From NCBI GenBank assembly GCA_020890945.1, contig JAJHPK010000055.1:1-54503 (forward strand): DNA of 54,503 bases, read 5' to 3'. The notes under the pieces were generated by a model. The model saw only the letters and a list, made by a program, of their open reading frames with translations. It was not told the DNA's origin and did no database searches. This DNA comes from Nitrosomonas sp. Its GTDB lineage: Bacteria > Pseudomonadota > Gammaproteobacteria > Burkholderiales > Nitrosomonadaceae. A program made the translations under genes and the position numbers. Positions 18,056 to 27,377 of the stretch are shown here, piece after piece; the first letter of the stretch is position 1; the number at the start of each line of letters is the position of its first letter.

Positions 18056-19402
18056 TTAATCGACCCCGCCACTGCCAGAAAAACGTTCGAAATACCTTTT
18101 TATAATTTGCAAAGTTTTCATGTTTTCAGTATGTCGAAATACGACATAGTTAACCAAGCCATGCAAAATCATTGCTAGCAAAAGTCCTTCAAAAATTCCC
18201 AATTTATATACAGCTAGTGCACAAAATACCGCTAGCATCAACGCATATTGACCTTCGTGAGCAACATGCAATAATCCAGCAATCATTTTCCAGCCGGTAA
18301 AAATCATGATGATAGCTAAAGAGAACTTAGGAAGGTACTCTAAATATTGTGTATTTAATACAAAAAATAGAATAACAACACCAATAACTAACACGGAAAA
18401 CTTAGTGTAAGCGCCTGCTAATTTATTGGTAGTACTTTTTGCTAAGCCATCCAAATTAGTCATGCCGCCAAAAAAACTTGCTCCCATATTGGAGATCCAA
18501 ATAGCAAGCAAACTGTTATTCGTGTCGCACTTGCGTTTCAATGGATCGATTTTTTCAATCGCGGCATTACTCATAACCTGTTCTATCACATCGATGATCG
18601 CCAGCATTAGCGCGAAACCGATGACATGAAGCCAAGTAAATGCATCTTCAAAATGAGGAATAGGCAATGCCAATGAGAGTGGAACATCTTCCACGTATAA
18701 CATAGGCATCGGGAAGAATTGCGCAATGACTACGCCCGCTATAATTAATGCAAAATAAGGTACGGCTGGTTGTTTTGCCTGATATTTACTAAACAAATAT
18801 AAAAATAGCGCAAATCCTCCGAGCGATATCATTACCATTTGAATACGAGCAAGATTCCAGAATTCAACAGATACGGAATCCTTAGGTAATTCATAGGTCA
18901 TGGCGAAAAAGTTGAGTGCGATTTTTAAGCCTACACCCGCTAGTAGACCTTCAATCATATAGCTTGGAACGGCTACTAAAATATATTTTTGTAGATTATA
19001 TTTCCAAATAATTGCTTGAATGAAGGCGGTCAAGAAAATAGCAAAAGCCATATTTTCCATGCCAAAGCTTGCAACGCCCATGGCTAGAACAGGGGCCAGA
19101 CCTGCAGCAACTCCTGGCGCACCAATATAATTTCCTGGTTTAATCCAAGCATTGATCCAACCAATGAAACAAGCAAAAACTACCGTGGCTAATGCAACTT
19201 TGATCGGATAATGTGACATCATCGCGATGCCAGCCGACAGAGGAATGGCCATGGCTCCGGTGATGATGCCTCCTTGCAGATCGCGTACTAAATATTGTGA
19301 TTGAAAAGCGGCCGAACCTAGTTTCTCCAAATGAAGACTGTTGTTTGGACTGTTTTGTGTGGTGTTATCGACTAAAGTCGATTTTTGATTATGTGTTGTC
19401 AT
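18056..19402 (-). CDS. SulP-family anion transporter lacking a STAS domain
   Basis: A 448-aa polytopic membrane protein. It begins with an approximately 35-residue hydrophilic tail, then about 10-12 membrane spans. RDLQGGIITGAMAIPLSAGI and GAPGVAAGLAPVLAMG match the SulP transport core. The protein stops soon after the last span (MKTLQIIKRYFERF), so the C-terminal STAS domain of most SulP proteins is absent. SulP carriers move sulfate, bicarbonate or dicarboxylates; the substrate cannot be read from sequence. It is a single-gene unit between two hairpins. Confidence 0.8.
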   Translation of the reverse strand: MTTHNQKSTLVDNTTQNSPNNSLHLEKLGSAAFQSQYLVRDLQGGIITGAMAIPLSAGIAMMSHYPIKVALATVVFACFIGWINAWIKPGNYIGAPGVAAGLAPVLAMGVASFGMENMAFAIFLTAFIQAIIWKYNLQKYILVAVPSYMIEGLLAGVGLKIALNFFAMTYELPKDSVSVEFWNLARIQMVMISLGGFALFLYLFSKYQAKQPAVPYFALIIAGVVIAQFFPMPMLYVEDVPLSLALPIPHFEDAFTWLHVIGFALMLAIIDVIEQVMSNAAIEKIDPLKRKCDTNNSLLAIWISNMGASFFGGMTNLDGLAKSTTNKLAGAYTKFSVLVIGVVILFFVLNTQYLEYLPKFSLAIIMIFTGWKMIAGLLHVAHEGQYALMLAVFCALAVYKLGIFEGLLLAMILHGLVNYVVFRHTENMKTLQIIKRYFERFSGSGGVD

Positions 19403-19744
19403 GCGCGCTTAAATTACTAAAAAGTTAATCGAAGGAATCAGTATTTGATTGAAGCCTGATCGAAAATTTCTCTACCAGTTAGTGGCTAAAGTCGTTTGTT
19501 AATAAACTTCAATGTAATGATCGATCAGGCATAACCATAACATCTTTTATATTGTGGTTAAATGGTGATTTGAACTGCGAATCGTATTCAGTTTGACAAA
19601 AAATAAATTAATTATCTTTTATAACAAATAGATACCATCGATAATTGTTGGAAATGCATTTGTGAATTTTTTGTGTAGGTGTTGTAAATTCACAAAAAAT
19701 TCACAAATGCAGGGACAGACTGTCGAAGAATTTTTGGATGCTAT
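19403..19744. other. Intergenic region between the SulP gene and hvfC
   Basis: About 340 bp without a supported gene. It holds the 5' region of the SulP gene and a 21-bp perfect hairpin at 19655-19711. Nothing else was recognised. Confidence 0.5.
19655..19711 (-). terminator. Long perfect hairpin downstream of hvfC
   Basis: The arms 19655-19675 and 19691-19711 are exactly complementary over 21 bp (TGCATTTGTGAATTTTTTG...), with a 15-nt loop. It starts about 35 bp past the hvfC stop. There is no GC-rich core and no T-tail, so it may be an mRNA 3'-stabilising structure or an operator rather than a classical terminator. Confidence 0.5.
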
Positions 19745-20533
19745 TTACTGATGGCGTTGGATTCCAAGAATAATTTGATGTTTTTTTAAATTATTGAGAA
19801 TTTCTATACCCCTTTGCATGACTTCATCAGAATTTGGGTAATTCAATTCCGCAATAATTTGTTGCAGCAATTCTTCCCCGGTTTTCTCCGTATTATTCGT
19901 CAATAACGTCATTAAACGAGCAGTGACATGGTTAATTTCCATGAAGCGAACGTTAAAATCGCCGTCACAAAAAACGATGATGTGAATGGGAGTTTCATTA
20001 GGTTTCTGTGGTTGAAAATCAACGCTGATTTGATGTACAGGAAAACGATAGCTGAGTGTCCAAGCGAGCGGTGAAATTACGGGTATGCCTTTTAATATAT
20101 CTCCTTCAGAATCAAATTGTTTTGCATCAATTTCTGTATCTAACGTTGAGATTGCTAGTTCAATCCACTCGTAATGAGCGAGTTCTTGCAGAAAAGGCGG
20201 ATCATCAGGGTGAGCTTGACGTTCATATTGCAAATATTTGAGAAACTCTCGTGGCATTTCGGGGAAAAGTGGCGTGCGTGCTCTATGATTGGCAAAGTAA
20301 TCGCGTATCAATGCGTGCCAATGTTGGTTTGATAAGATTTGCCGTAGCACCGGATAAGTGTTGGCGATGAAATCTTCAACATTGTTATAAAACAAATCGT
20401 TGTAGATTTTCATGCGTCGCGGTTCTACATCTTGGGGGCGAGGATTTTTTTCAGGATCGCGGATATGGGCTGCGAAAGTATATTGCAGCGCAATGAAATC
20501 GCAGCAATTATTCTTGTCGTTGGTGGAGGCCAC
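19745..20533 (-). CDS. hvfC: HvfC/BufC-type RiPP maturation partner (DUF2063)
   Basis: Partner protein that acts with the DUF692 enzyme on the metal-binding precursor peptide. It has the DUF2063 N-terminal helical domain ([13 protein letters not shown] ... [49 protein letters not shown]) and a C-terminal domain after about residue 130. An upstream frame is open, but a GTG at 20533 has AGGA 8 nt before it and gives 262 aa, the usual size. The start lies 26 bp inside hvfB, so the two are probably coupled. No BufD/DoxX-type gene follows. Confidence 0.82.
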
Positions 20534-21368
20534 GATTGCATTCCTGCCAGTGCGATTGTTTGGTATGAATGATATCAATTTCATTCAGCAATTCTGGCAA
20601 TGGTGGAAAATTAAAATCCCGCTCCAGTAGCGTAGGAGTGACGCCGAAACGTTCGTAAGCAATGTCCAATAACTGCCAGACCGGATCAATCACATCGGCA
20701 CCGTGCGTATCGATAATCAGATCGTCAGCTTCGTTGTAATGTCCGGCGATATGGATATAACCAACGCGCTCGATAGGTAATTGCTGTAAAAAAGCTTTGG
20801 CATCGTAATTGTGATTGATGCTATTGACATAAATATTATTGACATCAAGTAATAAATCACAATCTGCTTGTTGCAGCACAGCATTTAGGAAATCGATTTC
20901 TTCCATTTCTTGGCCGGGTGCTGCGTAATACGAAACATTTTCGATTGCGATACGTCGTTCAAGATGGTCTTGGACTTGTTTAATTCGATTGGCAACATAA
21001 CTGACTGCTTGCTCGGTAAACGGGATCGGCATCAGATCATACAAATGTCCATCATCGCTGCAATAGCTCAAATGTTCACTGTAGTAGCGAATATTGTGTT
21101 GATGTAGGAATTTTTTTAATTTTTGTAAAAAAGCTTGATCGATTGGCGTAGGGCCGCCAATCGATAGAGACAAACCGTGACAAATAAAGGGGTGCTGTTC
21201 AGTTAACGCACGGAGTTTTTTGCCAAAATAACCGCCGACACCAATCCAATTTTCCGGTGCAATTTCCCAGAAATTAACTTGATTGGTAGCATATTCGGAA
21301 AGCGAGCGTATGAACGCTCGCCGAAGCCCCAATCCTGCGCCATAAACAGGAAAATCTTTATTGTGCAA
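20508..21368 (-). CDS. hvfB: HvfB/BufB-type MNIO RiPP maturase (DUF692)
   Basis: Multinuclear non-haem iron oxidase of the DUF692 family, which converts cysteines of precursor peptides to thiooxazole- or oxazolone/thioamide-type groups. The 286-aa TIM-barrel protein has the N-terminal [10 protein letters not shown] and the metal-ligand regions [47 protein letters not shown] and [12 protein letters not shown]. The start is probably the TTG at 21368, because no ATG occurs before the conserved N-terminus; the Shine-Dalgarno is weak. It lies 17 bp after the precursor gene. Confidence 0.88.
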
Positions 21369-21385
21369 CGCGATATTTGAATGAA

Positions 21386-21736
21386 TTATTTTTTATTGCT
21401 GCCGCATTTGCCTTCACCACACTTACCTTCTTTCTCCGATTTCTTTTCACCACACTTTCCTTCCATATTTTTTTTCATTTCGCCTTTGTTACCGCATTTG
21501 CCTTCGCCACATTTACCTTCTTGACCAGGTTTTTTATTGTCATGCTGGCTATCAGATGCGGGTTTTTCTGCAGTGTCTGCTTGTGCTAATTGCATATAGC
21601 CGCCAGATAATTCTTTCATGGCAAAAGGATTGCTATTGTTTGCTTCAGCGTTGGCTGACAAACTACCTACTGTCAGAGTGGAGGCGAGGGCGGTACCTAA
21701 TACAATCGAAACAGGTTTGGTGATTTTTTTAGACAT
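21386..21736 (-). CDS. hvfA: HvfA/bufferin-type RiPP metallophore precursor, EGKCG repeats
   Basis: A 116-aa secreted precursor. It has a Sec signal peptide (about residues 1-30, cleavage after SANA), a conserved spacer ([17 protein letters not shown]), and a Lys/Glu/Gly-rich C-terminus with five EGKCG units, whose cysteines are at 76, 81, 94, 106 and 111. EGKCG is the recognised substrate motif of HvfB/BufB enzymes, and the modified peptides are reported to bind copper in other bacteria. AAGGAG precedes the ATG by 5 nt. The gene lies 73 bp after the multicopper oxidase, and hvfB and hvfC follow. Metal specificity here is inferred from the family. Confidence 0.9.
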
Positions 21737-21809
21737 ACATTCTCCTTGGTGAAAATCTGTAAACGAGAGTTAGAATAGTTGATCATAACGCTAAAAACAG
21801 CAGCGTGTT

Positions 21810-22853
21810 TTATTTTTTTGCTTGCATAACCTGCCATCGAGTAGCCATTCCGGCGATCATGTGGTCATCTACATGGCAGTGAAACAACCAATCACCTGCG
21901 GATCGAGGTGTCATGTCGACTGATATCATGCTCGCAGGCAGAATTTCAATCACATCCGTTCGCCGGCCTTGATTAAGCACCGTTTGTCCATGCCAATGAA
22001 CGGTATGATTATCCGTTTCGTTGCCCAGCGCAACGAGGTGCCAGCGAACACGTTTGCCAATGATTGTTTCATAGCCAGAAAGATTGCCAAAAATGCGTCC
22101 GTTGATGGTATGTTTCATACCGCTTTCTTCATCATTTTCTTCATTAAAAATCATAAATAAAGCGGTAAATTCGTGATCTACGTCTCGGGGCGTTGGGTTG
22201 GCCGTCGAACGAATTTTGTTTGCAAGTGTCACAACAATCGTGCCAATCAAGCCGAGATTCGTTTCGTCTTCTGCCATCACATGCGAATGATACAACCATA
22301 CCACGGATGACAAATCCTTTGGTCCAGGGCCTGCATCTTCATCAACCACCCAGGTATAAGTAAAACTTTTACCAGGAGCAATACTGCCACCTTTACCCCC
22401 ATCCGCACCTTCATTATCTTTATCATATTTCAAGCCGTGTGGGTGCATAGAAACGGGACGGTCTGTTTTATTGAGAAAATGAACTTTAAGCGTATCTCCA
22501 ACTGCGGCGCGTAGCTGTGGACCAAGGATGCCCATCCACTCTGGTTGTGGTAGCGGTTTTGAGTAACTTCCGTCGGAGTAGCCGATATAGCGGTATTTGG
22601 TATAGTTTAAGGTTTTTCCCCAAACATCTAAGCTATCATCGGGATGAATCAAGTTTTTATTGGAAGGAGCGTAATTCCAAGTTACTTTTTCAGCAGCGAT
22701 CCAGTATTCTCGAACGGATGCTTGCACTGAGAGTGAACATAATATCGTGAAGCTGAAAAATGAGAGGGTTAAGATTTTTCTAAAGCATTGGCGCATCATT
22801 TTTACATCAAATAAGTTTTCTTTAAAGGATGGATAACTACTCGGTAAATTCAA
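21810..22853 (-). CDS. Two-domain multicopper oxidase, exported
   Basis: Copper-dependent oxidase. All four copper-ligand segments are present in 347 aa: HPHG (137-140), YHSH (188-191), HTVHWHGQ (283-290) and HCHVDDHMIAGM (325-336), which contains the type-1 Cys and axial Met. That makes it a small two-domain or ceruloplasmin-like form rather than the three-domain CueO type. A signal sequence ends near SVQA|SV. The TTG at 22853 overlaps the DUF2325 stop and has GAGG 7 nt upstream. ATG at 22799 is an alternative. Oxidation of Cu(I) or Fe(II) in the periplasm is likely from context but not proven. Confidence 0.85.
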   Translation of the reverse strand: MNLPSSYPSFKENLFDVKMMRQCFRKILTLSFFSFTILCSLSVQASVREYWIAAEKVTWNYAPSNKNLIHPDDSLDVWGKTLNYTKYRYIGYSDGSYSKPLPQPEWMGILGPQLRAAVGDTLKVHFLNKTDRPVSMHPHGLKYDKDNEGADGGKGGSIAPGKSFTYTWVVDEDAGPGPKDLSSVVWLYHSHVMAEDETNLGLIGTIVVTLANKIRSTANPTPRDVDHEFTALFMIFNEENDEESGMKHTINGRIFGNLSGYETIIGKRVRWHLVALGNETDNHTVHWHGQTVLNQGRRTDVIEILPASMISVDMTPRSAGDWLFHCHVDDHMIAGMATRWQVMQAKK

Positions 22854-23509
22854 GAAAATACCTCAGTTTCTGTTGCCACGCATGTTAGCGCATGAATCCC
22901 TTGCTGGAAAGTGGCAATGGATGACCGATCGAGTAAAACGCATAACTTATCGAAAGATTCGCAATACTTTTTAACAAGCAAAAATGCCTCATGGTCTACG
23001 CAATCCACTGGGCAGATAATCATATCGGCTTTTTGTAAAAGTTGCAGTAAATGCTTAAAAGAGGTGTCATTAGCGTTGTTGTGAAATGCCATAAACTGAC
23101 CACCCAGTGCTTCAATGAGCTGGCCGTATTGAGGGTACAACTTAAGTTGGCCACCAACACATAGAACAGATTTCCCAAATAAATTCAATTTTTTGGTGTT
23201 TGTGTGTCCATTTGTAGCATTAGGTTGGATGTTGTTTTTTGCTTTAATAATAGGCGCCCAATTACGATTATTATTGTAGTAATTCGCAGCTTTCTTGCTT
23301 TTTTGATTTTGAAGTTTTGAGGTTAGTCCAGATCTATATAATTGTTGATACCGAGATTTTTCTTTTTTTAGGGTCAGAAAAACGCTTTCTAATTTTCCGA
23401 TAAGAAAAGCCAGAGTGCTATCTAATAATGTATGCTCGGAATCTTCAAAAGTAGGTGTGGCGCTGATTCCGGTTTGATTGATAAACGCGAGCTTTTTTAG
23501 CAATTTCAT
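22850..23509 (-). CDS. DUF2325-domain protein
   Basis: A 219-aa protein. The C-terminal half is a DUF2325 domain (SVLCVGGQLKLYPQYGQLIE, LLQKADMIICPVDCVDHEAF, LLDRSSIATFQQGI). The N-terminal half is a helical region, and the middle (KAANYYNNNRNWAPIIKA) is of low complexity. DUF2325 genes recur beside bacterioferritin and hemP in proteobacteria; the biochemical role is unknown. AGGAGG lies 7 nt before the ATG at 23509, so the ATG 6 bp earlier is rejected. The stop overlaps the oxidase start, tying it to the copper genes. Confidence 0.8.
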   Translation of the reverse strand: MKLLKKLAFINQTGISATPTFEDSEHTLLDSTLAFLIGKLESVFLTLKKEKSRYQQLYRSGLTSKLQNQKSKKAANYYNNNRNWAPIIKAKNNIQPNATNGHTNTKKLNLFGKSVLCVGGQLKLYPQYGQLIEALGGQFMAFHNNANDTSFKHLLQLLQKADMIICPVDCVDHEAFLLVKKYCESFDKLCVLLDRSSIATFQQGIHALTCVATETEVFS

Positions 23510-23631
23510 GATCATTCCTCCTGCATATGAATGCAGTAAAAAAGATTGGCTCGCTTACCCGGGAGGAAATAGGTTGGCTGGCTAAATAAGCTGCTAGAGA
23601 AGGAAGAGAACTCCAGCAGCATCTGAAAATC

Positions 23632-24096
23632 TTACATCTGACTTTGTAACCAATTGGGAATACCGACTTTCTGCATAACGTCTAGTTGTGTTTCTAACCA
23701 ATCGATATGCTCTTCGGTATCATCTAATATGTGTTCAAACAATTCGCGTGAAACAAAATCCTTTGCTTTTTCACAAGCCGCTATAGCTTTTAACAATGAT
23801 TCTCTAGCAGTAATTTCGAGTTTCAAGTCACATGCAACACATTCCTGAGCGTTTTCGCCGATCAACAATTTGCCCAGATCCTGTAGATTAGGTAATCCTT
23901 CCAAAAAAAGAATTCGTTCAATCAATTTGTCTGCGTGTTTCATTTCTTCGCATGATTCTTCAAACTCATGTTTCCCTAGGCTATTAAATCCCCAGTTTTT
24001 ATACATGCGGGCATGTAAAAAATACTGATTAATCGCAGTTAATTCGTGCAGTAATTGTTGGTTTAAATGGCGGATTATCTCTTTATCACCCTTCAT
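23632..24096 (-). CDS. bfr: Bacterioferritin
   Basis: Haem-containing iron-storage protein, forming a 24-mer shell. The 154-aa protein starts [20 protein letters not shown] and has Glu18, Tyr25, Glu51, Met52 (haem ligand), His54 and Glu94 at the Escherichia coli Bfr positions, plus His130 in EEHIDWLE. The ferroxidase bridging ligand expected at 127 is Thr (DDTEEHID), so the diiron site may be incomplete. AGGAGAT is 4 nt before the ATG. Placement between hemP and DUF2325 is an iron-homeostasis context. Confidence 0.93.
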
Positions 24097-24243
24097 TGTT
24101 ATCTCCTGACAGGTATAGCGTTTAAGCAAAAACATTCATTTTGCATAGATTAACAATTTTTACAAAGCAAAAACATACTATGCATGTATAAATGAGTACA
24201 ACTCCTTTAATGATATACCTGATTTGAACCATAAATCTACGTG

Positions 24244-24435
24244 CTATTTATTCAGGATCAACTTTCCACCGCGAGTCCGACGTAAGGAATACTGTTCTCC
24301 TTTATGTCGTATCAATACGACGTCGCCATTATTAAACAACCATTCACTGTCCAAAATTTTTCTAGTACCAATATACTCTTGTTGATAAGAATTGAGATTT
24401 TCGTGATTTATTTGAGAAATATGTAAAGAATTCAT
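24244..24435 (-). CDS. hemP: HemP-family small protein (hemin uptake protein)
   Basis: A 63-aa protein whose C-terminal half matches HemP (ILDSEWLFNNGDVVLIRHKG, then EQYSLRRTRGGKLILNK). HemP proteins are small and Fur-controlled, and influence haem uptake, in some species as regulators. The N-terminus (MNSLHISQINHENLNSY) is not conserved. No haem-receptor gene follows; bfr does, 148 bp away. The Fur box lies 21 bp upstream of the ATG. Confidence 0.85.
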   Translation of the reverse strand: MNSLHISQINHENLNSYQQEYIGTRKILDSEWLFNNGDVVLIRHKGEQYSLRRTRGGKLILNK

Positions 24436-24455
24436 GATTTATCTTAATTATTAAT

Positions 24456-24496
24456 GAGAATGATTATCATTATACATATATTTTTTTGAAATACAA
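24456..24496 (-). promoter_or_regulatory. hemP promoter with overlapping Fur box
   Basis: On the minus strand TTGTAT (24491-24496) and TATAAT (24469-24474) are separated by 16 bp. A 19-bp Fur box, GAGAATGATTATCATTATA on the plus strand (24456-24474), matches the palindromic consensus at 17 of 19 positions and covers the -10. Iron-dependent repression of hemP, and perhaps of genes behind it, is expected. Confidence 0.85.
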
Positions 24497-24510
24497 GAGG
24501 AAATCTTTGC

Positions 24511-25130
24511 ATGGTTTCATCCCAATTTATGGATCAGTTGATATAATTACATTTTAAATCATTTAATTGACTGTAACTCGATAGAGAAAGCAATCGCAGT
24601 GCATTATGCACCGGTTTGCGATGCTGCGGGACGTCCGGCGTATTCGGGGTTGCTGTTGTTTAAAATGCTATTGGTCGGGATTTGGAACGGTGGTCTAAGC
24701 GATGAATCGGTGGAAGACATGGCGAACTCGAATCTCCACGTGATACGGTTTCTGGGATTGTCGTTTGAAGATGATGTGCCGGATCATTCTGTGCTATCAC
24801 GATTTAGAACGCGATTGACGGTTGTAAAAGTATGGGATGGGTTATTTGCGGAAATCAACCAGCAAATCCAGACTTACAACATCACCGTTAAAGGGGATTG
24901 TCACGTTGACGCGAGCATTACGCAGAGTTCACGCAAACCTAAAACCAAACCAGCTTGTGAAGTTGGTCAGTGATGGGGAAGCGCGATGATTAAATCGAGG
25001 TCGAGAAAGCGATGTAGGTTATTGATATGGCACAATCCGGTGTCGATGTTGAAGCACGCTGGATCAAAAAAGGTGGAAACTCAGTTAAGAAAATGGTAGT
25101 TTTACATGACAATAACTGCGTCCATTTTCG
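24511..25130 (+). pseudogene. Degenerate IS5-family transposase
   Basis: Fragments of one transposase can be followed in different frames. The frames are MVSSQFMDQLI (stop), then from 24599 a 124-codon stretch with HYAPVCDAAGRPAYSGLLLF, FLGLSFEDDVPDHSVLSRFR and the catalytic-Asp region GDCHVDASITQSSRKP, which ends in a stop, and then GVDVEARWIKKGGNSVKK at about 25038-25091. The C-terminal half, with the other catalytic residues, is missing. A related fragment lies at 53545-53956. The remnant abuts the hemP promoter on one side and the rlmL 3' end on the other. Boundaries are approximate, and no terminal inverted repeats were found. Confidence 0.85.
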
Positions 25131-25151
25131 CAAAAACCAACTCTATCCAAG

Positions 25152-27377
25152 TTATTTATAAGTTATCTTCCAGCAAGCGTGAATTTTGGCGTCGCGTTTA
25201 AAGTCCTCGGATATTGTCGTCGCACTGATATTCTCAATGGATAGATCCGATAAAGCCTCACTATCCATTTTGAAACGGCGGGAATTCGTCGAAAAATAAA
25301 GAATTCCCATTTTTTCTTTTATTCCGTCTTGATCAATCGATAGTAATGCAACAGCATTGCGTATCAGTTGAACGTGATCACGTTGAATATCAAACAATTC
25401 CTCCATTTTCTTGGAATTGGAAAAAGTGGGAGGATCAAGAAAAATCAGATCAAACTGCGGTTTTTGCTGCGCATGCGCTTGGTCATAGAGCCATTCTAAA
25501 CAATCGGCACGTATGAATTGGTGATTCCCAGTTGTAATGTTATTGAGTGTAAAATTACGTTTTGCCCAGTCTAGATAAGTGTTTGACATATCGATAGTAA
25601 CCGTCGAATGCGCACCCCCCATGACTGCATGCACCGATGCAGTCCCCGTGTAGGCAAATAAGTTCAAAAAGCGCTTGTCTTTGGCTTGCTGCTGAATCAG
25701 CAAACGCATCGGCCGGTGATCCAGAAATAGCCCCGTATCGAGATAATCTTCAAAATTAACCCAAAATTTGCAACCATTCTCTTCAACGATATGAAAATGA
25801 CGCGAATCGCTGATTTTTTCGTATTGTTCGGTGTTCTTTTGTTTGCGGCGGATTTTTAGATAGATTTGTTGCGATGGTATTTCCAAAACTTTGCTTATTT
25901 CACTCAGAACACCTGCCAAGCGATGAGTCGCCTTAATGGAATCAATCGATTTAGGCGGTTCGTATTCTTGTACATTCACCCAAGTTTTTTCACCTTGATA
26001 GACATCTATGGCGACCGCATACTCCGGTAAATCCGCATCGTATAAGCGATAGCAATGAATGTGGTTTTTTTTAATCCAAGAAGCTAATTTTTTTAGATTT
26101 TTGCGTAACCGGTTAGCAAACATTTCGACTTGGCTATCCGCCATCGTTGTTTGCGAATGTAGATTCACTTGCTCGATACGCTCTTGCTGAGATTTTGCCT
26201 TGGGTTCGAAAAAGCTTTTTTCATCGATGTCGAGTCGGAGCAATTTGCATTCCAATGCGCCATTAAACATGGTGATTGGTTTTTGCGAACGAACTCCTAA
26301 ACGAAAACCTAACTCTGGATCACCGATAATGATAGCTGCTTGCCAACCCGTGAATTGTTGCTTTAATACCTCGCCAAAAGTACGATAAAGCGTTGTAGTC
26401 TGTGCTTCATCGCCTAAGCGTTCGCCATAGGGTGGATTACAAATGAGCAAACCTTTCGGCCAGCTTTCCGCCGCAGATGCTTCTGAAATATCTCGTTTTT
26501 CAATATGGATCTTGCTTTGCAATCCAAGATTTTCAATATGTTGCAAGGCCGCTGTGACAGTACGGCGATCTTGATCAAAACCTACCATTACGGGAAGTTT
26601 ATCCATGCCAATATCACGTCGTTGTCGTGCTTCATCGAGTAACGCTTGCCAAAGAGCTTCGTCATGCGACTTCCAGCCTAGAAAACCAAAATAATCGCGT
26701 TGCAGACCTGGCGCAATGTCACCTGCAATCAAAGCCCCCTCTGTTAATAAGGTACCCGAGCCACACATAGGATCTAATAAAGATTTGCCTTGTGCTGCCA
26801 TAGTAGGCCAGCCAACTCGTAACAGCATCGCCGCAGCTAAACTTTCTTTTATGGGAGCAATCACTTGCGTAGCGCGATAGCCGCGTTTGTGCAAGCTTTC
26901 ACCCGATAAATCCAAACTGAGTTGCGCTATCTCGTTATGCAAATAGACATTGACGCGAATGCTAGGTCGTTCGGTATCGATATCGGGACGGGTACCAAAC
27001 TGACTGCGCATTTGATCAACGATGGCATCTTTGACCTTGAGCGCACCAAAATGCGAATGTGTAATGGCTGAATTATTTTTGCTATTGAATGAAACGGCTA
27101 GACTATCATCGGCATTCAAATGTTTTGACCAGTCGGTACGTTGCACACCAGCGTATAAATCTTGCTGCGATTTTACTTCGAAAGTATCCAACAATAACAA
27201 GACACGACTGGCCGTGCGAAGCCACAAGCACGATTGATAAGCAAGCTTTAAATCGCCTTCAAATGCCACCCCGGCCATTTTTTGTTTTACATTTTTTGCA
27301 CCAAGCGCCTTGAGTTCGTTGGCCAAAATATCTTCCATCGCTTTTGGCGTAGTGGCAAAAAGCTGATAATCCGTCAT
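25152..27377 (-). CDS. rlmL: 23S rRNA methyltransferase RlmKL (m2G2445 and m7G2069)
   Basis: Bifunctional rRNA methyltransferase. The N-terminal half has a THUMP domain (about residues 50-160) and an RlmL methyltransferase domain with DPMCGSGTLLTEGAL and NPPYGERLG. The C-terminal RlmK half has LNLFAYTGTASVHAVMGGA and FLDPPTFSNSKKME. At 741 aa it is slightly longer than the Escherichia coli protein (702). It stands alone, 93 bp after the gpmA-like gene, with a degenerate IS right behind its stop. Confidence 0.95.
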   Translation of the reverse strand: MTDYQLFATTPKAMEDILANELKALGAKNVKQKMAGVAFEGDLKLAYQSCLWLRTASRVLLLLDTFEVKSQQDLYAGVQRTDWSKHLNADDSLAVSFNSKNNSAITHSHFGALKVKDAIVDQMRSQFGTRPDIDTERPSIRVNVYLHNEIAQLSLDLSGESLHKRGYRATQVIAPIKESLAAAMLLRVGWPTMAAQGKSLLDPMCGSGTLLTEGALIAGDIAPGLQRDYFGFLGWKSHDEALWQALLDEARQRRDIGMDKLPVMVGFDQDRRTVTAALQHIENLGLQSKIHIEKRDISEASAAESWPKGLLICNPPYGERLGDEAQTTTLYRTFGEVLKQQFTGWQAAIIIGDPELGFRLGVRSQKPITMFNGALECKLLRLDIDEKSFFEPKAKSQQERIEQVNLHSQTTMADSQVEMFANRLRKNLKKLASWIKKNHIHCYRLYDADLPEYAVAIDVYQGEKTWVNVQEYEPPKSIDSIKATHRLAGVLSEISKVLEIPSQQIYLKIRRKQKNTEQYEKISDSRHFHIVEENGCKFWVNFEDYLDTGLFLDHRPMRLLIQQQAKDKRFLNLFAYTGTASVHAVMGGAHSTVTIDMSNTYLDWAKRNFTLNNITTGNHQFIRADCLEWLYDQAHAQQKPQFDLIFLDPPTFSNSKKMEELFDIQRDHVQLIRNAVALLSIDQDGIKEKMGILYFSTNSRRFKMDSEALSDLSIENISATTISEDFKRDAKIHACWKITYK

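Follow-up and report, generated by a model that had tools for sequence, protein, structure and literature searches.

Organization of the locus

We examined contig JAJHPK010000055.1 of a Nitrosomonas sp., a stretch of 54,503 bases (the window) from a genome of 2.68 Mb. On its minus strand lie seven consecutive genes: hemP, bfr, a DUF2325 gene, a gene for a two-domain multicopper oxidase, and hvfA, hvfB and hvfC, which encode the precursor, maturase and partner protein of a ribosomally synthesised and post-translationally modified peptide (RiPP). A Fur box stands in front of hemP and a structured RNA element lies between bfr and the DUF2325 gene (Table 1). Ten window proteins, from 18056 to 27377, were scanned against Pfam and the curated TIGR/NF protein models. 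The protein-family matches confirm all seven genes in the order given by a preliminary description of this DNA, and support its claim of a physical link between haem/iron genes, an oxidase and an HvfABC system. Ammonia oxidisers depend on copper, for ammonia monooxygenase (AMO), and on much haem iron. Nitrosomonas is a free-living ammonia oxidiser and no host-associated bacterium; the earlier suggestion that the locus acts against host metal poisoning is therefore unsupported, and we rejected it.

Several start codons were set by comparison with orthologues. The bfr gene likely starts at 24096 rather than 24135. The open reading frame of the oxidase begins at TTG 22853, which would produce the 4-nt overlap with the DUF2325 gene described earlier, but orthologues favour ATG 22799, 50 nt 3' of that gene. 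Among 19 DUF2325-oxidase pairs, a 4-nt overlap occurs in 5 and none in 14. The overlap of hvfB and hvfC stands, with a smaller size: the likely hvfC start, GTG 20533, gives 26 nt rather than 77. In the DUF2325 protein, residues C119, C168, D171, C172, H175 and C185 are invariant in 44/44 sequences.

Table 1. Features of the locus and their coordinates in the window.
Feature	Position	Strand	Remarks
Fur box TATAATGATAATCATTCTC	24456..24474	-	overlaps hemP promoter; 17/19 vs consensus
hemP	24244..24435	-	PF10636, E 2e-14
bfr, bacterioferritin, optional module	23632..24096	-	TIGR00754, 236 bits; start set by orthologues
Structured RNA element	23540..23640	-	R1 match 86.1 bits, E 5e-25; window is one of 43 training rows
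DUF2325 protein	22850..23515	-	PF10087
Two-domain ceruloplasmin-type multicopper oxidase, predicted secreted ferroxidase	21810..22799	-	PF07732+PF07731
hvfA promoter-like box GTTATGAT	21782..21789	-	recurs in 23/26 hvfA upstreams
hvfA, RiPP precursor, five EGKCG motifs, signal-peptide-like start	21386..21736	-	NF050137
hvfB, MNIO (multinuclear non-haem iron-dependent oxidative enzyme) maturase, TTG start	20508..21368	-	PF05114; NF003818, 450 bits vs cut-off 360
hvfC, DUF2063 partner protein	19745..20533	-	PF09836; NF050145, 304 bits vs cut-off 142

Conservation of the locus in Nitrosomonas

We searched 85 Nitrosomonas genomes (cited by G numbers) for HvfB, the oxidase, DUF2325, bfr and hemP, and clustered the matching places at gaps of <3,500 bases. 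Some genomes of this set recur among the named loci L123–L202, which are therefore not independent of it; nine of these loci are also training rows of the covariance model R1 described below. In Nitrosomonas, hemP and DUF2325 are combined with three optional modules, namely bfr, the oxidase and hvfABC. A hemP match is present in 80 of the 85 genomes and is linked to DUF2325 in 76, where the pair stands alone (17 genomes) or is accompanied by bfr (30), the oxidase (11), bfr and the oxidase (6), bfr and hvf (8) or all of them (4). In G025, one of the six genomes with hemP, DUF2325, bfr and oxidase, a further contig carries a piece with oxidase and hvf. The oxidase, at an identity of at least 67%, occurs in 22 genomes and lies behind DUF2325 in all of these except G081. 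Within the stretch examined, 37 of the 46 closest named oxidase loci (L123–L168) contain a hemP match. In Nitrosomonas sp. Nm166 the locus comprises all seven genes.

The association of hvf with the iron genes is found in relatives: besides the window, 12 Nitrosomonas genomes join hvf to hemP-DUF2325, in G025 across two contigs. The genes flanking these loci vary between groups and their inner order is constant, suggesting that the join is retained. On the HvfB tree the join takes three changes, at least one of them forced, and may have arisen once or more often. HvfB itself is found in 64 of the 85 genomes, and 56 HvfB places, some of them fragments, are apart from the other genes of the locus. 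The oxidase adjoins hvf in only 5 genomes, and 7 of the 22 oxidase-bearing genomes have no HvfB match. These counts do not bear out the tie between oxidase and RiPP that had been drawn from the window, and a general partnership of the oxidase with HvfA was rejected, the two being mostly apart across the 85 genomes.

The named relatives at the top of the oxidase matches belong to Nitrosomonas, Nitrosospira and Nitrosovibrio. The oxidase is also present at 71–74% identity in Methylobacter methanotrophs (L148, L162, L170), with no hemP or DUF2325 match within the stretch examined; these copies suggest transfer of the oxidase between ammonia and methane oxidisers. Possible short oxidase remnants, of 65–71 residues at 34% identity, lie directly behind DUF2325 in L113 (E 3e-6) and L114 (E 2e-4).

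A Fur box before hemP and a covarying RNA element behind it

Fur sites were scored against the 19-nt E. coli consensus, with a threshold of at least 15/19. At this threshold 42 of 44 loci have a Fur box upstream of hemP, at a distance of 33 to 51 nt from the start codon, compared with 0.5% of shuffles, in agreement with the preliminary description of the locus as Fur-marked. In none of the loci tested did the 250 nt upstream of bfr, DUF2325, the oxidase, hvfA or hvfB contain a site of at least 15/19 (0/26 for hvfA, 0/27 for bfr). A working Fur of N. europaea is NE0616 (PMC3050691).

Between hemP or bfr and DUF2325 we identified a covarying RNA element, which is new here and is present with or without bfr. 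It consists of helix 1, a GCCAGC..GCCAGC-type hairpin (helix 2) and a U-tract. In the window the element overlaps the bfr stop codon and ends just before the ribosome site of DUF2325. In 24 of 27 loci, bfr and DUF2325 are separated by 114 to 124 nt, and the fold of this gap appears to be conserved. In an alignment of 43 sequences (A3), both partners have changed in 11 of 17 pairs. The number of double-change cells is 71, compared with 21.8 in shuffles (0/500 as high) and at most 20 in slid versions of the structure. All nine pairs of helix 1 covary, G-U exchanges included, as do two tip pairs of helix 2, with 17 and 5 sequences changed on both sides. The GCCAGC/GCCAGC core of helix 2, a weak point for the structural interpretation, hardly varies, and 3 of the 8 pairs of helix 2 are invariant in 43/43 rows; the covariation thus supports helix 1 and the helix 2 tip but does not extend to the conserved core.

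The covariance model R1, built from 43 rows taken from hemP loci only, matches 80 of the 85 Nitrosomonas genomes, with a best E-value of 2e-15 or lower in each. Among 79 named loci, from which L129 had been excluded, it gave 36 strong matches (E <2e-6), all within the 37 hemP-bearing loci. Rfam yielded nothing for the window element at E-values up to 5, and only tRNAs in 17 loci, so a known Rfam family was rejected. We found no account of the element in the accessible text of open-licence papers.

The invariant core leaves room for another explanation, in which the tandem AGCCAGCC copies are targets of a Fur-controlled small RNA, or a DNA-binding site, and form no self-folding switch. The two near-identical C-rich copies and the three unvarying pairs fit this idea, and receptor genes, which also carry the element (see below), are typical targets of small RNAs. 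It is opposed by the covariation of helix 1 and the tip pairs and by the tip stems, which pair better than permuted halves (0/2000). We regard it as unlikely, if a serious contender.

Copies of the RNA element at other genes

A Nitrosomonas genome contains up to 4 R1 matches. Outside the hemP locus they lie just behind stand-alone bfr genes, before a long DUF2325 paralogue and before a gene for a second ceruloplasmin-type multicopper oxidase, mco2. With R1 and motif matches pooled, at least 12 of 30 mco2 places have the element upstream, some with weak scores (G003, G019, G020, G031, G034, G072, G075, G076, G079, G080, G081, G104). We also searched for the tandem motif AGCCAGCCA...AGCCAGCC, a pattern defined after viewing the sequences. 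It occurs in 64 of the 85 genus genomes, compared with 0 for a backward control. Of 30 fetched genus loci, 28 are intergenic, two of these being simple repeats; five non-repeat cases chosen by a receptor-like start precede TonB receptors (L243, L248, L249, L262, L271). A TonB receptor also follows the element at L229, L235 and L237, the last being the same place as L249. In a sample of 300 genomes from the order, the motif was present in 93. Seven of 30 fetched places from this sample are intergenic, and in six the next gene is a TonB receptor (L286, L287, L292, L293, L294, L298); in the seventh, L279, it has no Pfam match. Of 12 R1 loci from the order's other families, 8 lie in front of DUF6662 genes (L211, L212, L214, L218, L221, L222) or OprB genes (L213, L217), and hemP was confirmed before the element in L214, L218, L221 and L222. 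From these positions we read the element as a putative control element of metal-uptake genes. Two side observations concern the same searches. The L237/L249 run consists of the long DUF2325, a CbiX/ferrochelatase-like protein, the RNA element and a TonB receptor, and simple AGCC repeats, which were not counted, precede hsdM in L247 and a TonB receptor in L251.

Several results weigh against this reading. No match was found at the second oxidase of the window genome, L074. In the order sample the backward control also matches, in 9/300, and 23 of the 30 fetched order-wide places lie inside open reading frames, probably by chance. The matches L223–L226 precede a MacB-type ABC operon and L236 (E 2e-6) a pyridoxal enzyme, and 4 of the 12 order-level R1 loci (L215, L216, L219, L220) have no recognisable link. 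There is no U-tract at the receptor copies and at most of the mco2 copies examined.

The U-tract bears on a further alternative, that the element is merely an intrinsic terminator or an mRNA-stabilising 3' end of hemP or bfr, with no sensing. Its position directly after hemP or bfr, its presence behind stand-alone bfr genes and the U-tract at the DUF2325 leaders are as this alternative predicts, and the U-tract fits partial termination at those leaders. However, the element is also found in the leaders of mco2, of the long DUF2325 and of TonB receptors, where the U-tract is mostly missing and plain termination is hard to reconcile with its absence, and its sequence is kept beyond a bare stem. 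A plain terminator was rejected for want of a U-tract at most other copies; the broader alternative seems to us rather unlikely. For most copies, another mode of action or a shared binding partner must be possible. The presence of leader elements at both DUF2325 types had raised the idea that DUF2325 is the general binder of the RNA. This was rejected, because seven genomes (G351, G363, G240, G304, G160, G116, G173) lack any PF10087 match and yet carry the element, upstream of DUF6662 or OprB genes.

Returning to a control element of metal-uptake genes, we tentatively suggest that it may found a new class of metal-responsive cis-regulatory RNA, a possibility that we rate at somewhat less than even. 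Its hallmark would be two GCCAGC strands with tandem C.A mismatches, and, as a second layer beneath Fur, it would set the output of ceruloplasmin-type ferroxidase, DUF2325 and TonB receptor genes, both in Nitrosomonadaceae and elsewhere in the order. Placed before metal-uptake genes and without a counterpart in Rfam, the element would add a layer of control beside Fur.

The oxidase is likely a ceruloplasmin-type ferroxidase

The closest solved structures to the oxidase are ceruloplasmin, the best match (PDB 2j5w, E 2e-142), and clotting factors. The protein has 329 amino acids and two cupredoxin domains. The type 1 copper ligands are in domain 2, the cysteine is replaced by serine in domain 1, and the trinuclear ligands are complete. 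Type 1, 2 and 3 ligands are invariant in 18/18 sequences and in every complete row of an alignment of 104, made of 80 named loci, 23 Nitrosomonas loci and the window, with some genomes repeated.

In domain 6 of ceruloplasmin, iron is bound by E272, E935, H940 and D1025 (review, PMC3738974). Residues E225, H230 and D312 of the oxidase align with E935, H940 and D1025, and E261 corresponds to E272 by counting along the domain 2 alignment. The truncated L064 row is blank at this site; in the remaining 103 rows E225 is kept in 98, H230 in 100, and E261 and D312 in 103. The full set is present in 8/8 paralogues (L015–L022) and in 0/8 ordinary oxidases of the relatives (L024–L031; the fragment L023 was dropped). 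The oxidase is therefore likely a ferroxidase, with residues at all four ceruloplasmin iron-ligand positions. It shares the copper ligands and the four iron-site positions with ceruloplasmin and hephaestin (PDB 2j5w; PMC3738974), but is bacterial, has two domains rather than six and lacks a type 1 cysteine in the first domain. The locus offers a testable bacterial candidate, similar to the two-domain form presumed to underlie ceruloplasmin, hephaestin and clotting factors.

Neighbouring genes, which were named by a Pfam run on one member of each cluster, point to iron uptake. In six Nitrosospira and Nitrosovibrio loci (L132, L138, L145, L147, L157, L160) the oxidase is followed by a TonB receptor in 6/6, by PepSY_TM in 5/6 and by DUF4198 in 4/6, which makes TonB-linked Fe(III) uptake probable. 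In Methyloversatilis, a TonB receptor of the same cluster and PepSY_TM precede the oxidase. We infer that the oxidase is a secreted ferroxidase serving iron uptake. Two observations limit this assignment: the five rows without a full iron site are all Acidobacteriota oxidases, and the PepSY and TonB clusters adjoin the oxidase in only 1 of 14 Nitrosomonas loci (L090). The second ceruloplasmin-type oxidase of the window genome, L074, keeps the iron-site residues and lies behind ExbD and two proteins that match no Pfam family, an unassigned one of 294 aa and another of 749 aa.

The preliminary description had suggested that the oxidase converts Cu(I). The oxidase misses the CopA and CueO cut-offs by a wide margin (TIGR01480, 56.7 vs 478.95; NF008205, 28.7 vs 525), and its ceruloplasmin likeness and kept iron site also argue against this role. 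Cu(I) generated in situ served to load a related EGKCG peptide (PMC13097082), so prior oxidation of Cu(I) would not obviously aid binding.

Oxidases have been connected to iron in other ammonia oxidisers. A Fet3p-type multicopper oxidase of Nitrosococcus, described with an FTR permease, is thought to serve iron uptake (PMC9723733), as proposed here for the present oxidase, which is linked to TonB receptors in Nitrosospira and Nitrosovibrio. The N. europaea operon NE1538–NE1543 combines an oxidase with a TonB receptor, and its authors suggested a role in iron (PMC10781756). The identity of NE1543 with the present oxidase could not be established. In strain ATCC 25978, LysR and pirin genes follow the oxidase.

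hvfABC is likely a separate copper-buffer operon

The hvfABC genes have the composition of an HvfA/captophorin cluster: an EGKCG precursor, an MNIO maturase and a DUF2063 partner. HvfA passes the cut-off of NF050137 (44.8 vs 19.5 bits) and misses that of the equivalog NF050188 (35.4 vs 95). Its five EGKCG motifs place it among 15 of 26 HvfA proteins with five to seven; the other 11 have only two (L062, L066, L068, L069, L071–L073, L096, L099, L101, L107). The hvfABC(D)/fon clusters for oxazolin and captophorin share the EGKCG-repeat precursor, the MNIO HvfB and the DUF2063 HvfC with the window (PMC13097082, PMC12452194). Buf_EGKCG/oxazolin clusters contain MNIO, DUF2063 and DoxX genes, and a few have molybdenum-oxidoreductase or ferric-reductase genes (PMC12452194); thiooxazole and copper binding are reported for oxazolin (PMC13097082). 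In contrast to these clusters, hvfABC of the window is joined to hemP-DUF2325 and the oxidase, and no DoxX, which is frequent but not universal in such clusters, was found among the ten scanned proteins. A text search of PMC13097082 and PMC12452194 did not find the word 'multicopper', and among open-licence papers we found none on an association of HvfA/HvfB or DUF692 with a multicopper oxidase. In the accessible text of PMC8224329, which names both DUF692 and multicopper oxidase, the oxidase appears only in the title of a reference.

Upstream of hvfA we observed a promoter-like box, G(C/T)TA(T/A)NAT, in 10 of 13 stand-alone and 13 of 13 hemP-locus copies, compared with shuffle means of 0.2 and 0.4; the pattern was defined after viewing the sequences. 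Before the oxidase, DUF2325, bfr, hemP and hvfB together it occurs in 5/163. Because hvfA has its own box and no Fur box, hvfABC looks like a separate unit, likely with its own transcript. Its peptide is predicted to carry thiooxazole and to bind copper. A reservation is that only the -10-like half of the box is well kept, and a two-part pattern fits just 9 of 26 upstreams (6/13 and 3/13).

The alternative suggested by the preliminary description places all the genes in a single operon under Fur, with the oxidase converting Cu(I) for the HvfA peptide and with iron storage tied to this activity. The gene order, the window gaps of 50 and 73 nt flanking the oxidase and the adjacency of oxidase and hvfA in five genomes favour this arrangement. 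The search for an inner promoter, sequence-based and with the post hoc pattern just given, found the hvfA box in 23 of 26 upstreams, in both settings without a Fur site, and the RNA element splits hemP and bfr from the rest. Together with the separation of oxidase and hvf in most genomes having either, the kept iron site and the missed copper-oxidase cut-offs, this makes a single co-regulated unit very unlikely. Adjacency alone does not place hvfABC in the iron operon.

Two further observations concern hvf genes elsewhere. L104, L105 and L106 represent a second Nitrosomonas HvfB/HvfC lineage, with 57–62% identity to the window HvfB and no adjacent HvfA match. Behind stand-alone hvfABC genes (L092, L093, L097, L103) come a histidine-kinase-like protein and a receiver/TPR protein; members of these two clusters are also found after hvfABC in the hemP loci L069 and L072.

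A model of the locus

We propose an iron-acquisition locus that has a copper-buffer operon as its neighbour, an explanation to which, taken as a whole, we assign a probability of roughly 60%. Judging from its site, Fur would repress hemP when iron is plentiful, and iron shortage would lead to transcription of hemP, with bfr where present. The RNA element, by its structure and position, may then limit read-through or translation and so set the output of DUF2325 and the oxidase; its relatives before the second oxidase and TonB receptors would respond to the same signal. The secreted oxidase would convert periplasmic Fe(II) to Fe(III), probably for TonB-linked uptake. The hvfABC genes, presumably an operon for captophorin, a copper-binding RiPP, would have landed here with their own promoter, sharing the neighbourhood without an implied shared signal. 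Bfr is expected in the cytosol, and the oxidase and the peptide are seemingly secreted, so the model does not imply a direct transfer of metal between them. That the RNA element is instead a mobile repeat (of the repetitive extragenic palindrome or miniature inverted-repeat transposable element kind), maintained by copying and not by function, is suggested by the up to 4 matches per genome but is most improbable, as copies recur in equivalent positions upstream of the same kinds of gene, and the Nitrosospira versions persist at the same position.

Fur-controlled hemP (hmuP) loci have a Fur box before hemP and other iron genes behind it. The window resembles them in both respects; it differs in that DUF2325, the predicted ferroxidase and the RNA element come next and that no haem receptor was found among the scanned proteins. 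A known protein of the DUF2325 family is Cj1384, which has seven cysteines, is linked to catalase and PerR and lies in a cluster with catalase and a haem-trafficking gene (PMC9426514). Like the window protein it is cysteine-rich and stands beside haem and oxidative-stress genes, but it is short and next to catalase, whereas the window protein lies beside hemP and the predicted ferroxidase. The passages on DUF2325 that we consulted in open-licence papers give no experimentally tested function.

At the borders of the locus, a SulP-like transporter is encoded 3' of hvfC, and a 124-aa truncated piece of an IS5/IS1182-type transposase lies just upstream of hemP, at 24599-24973 on the plus strand.

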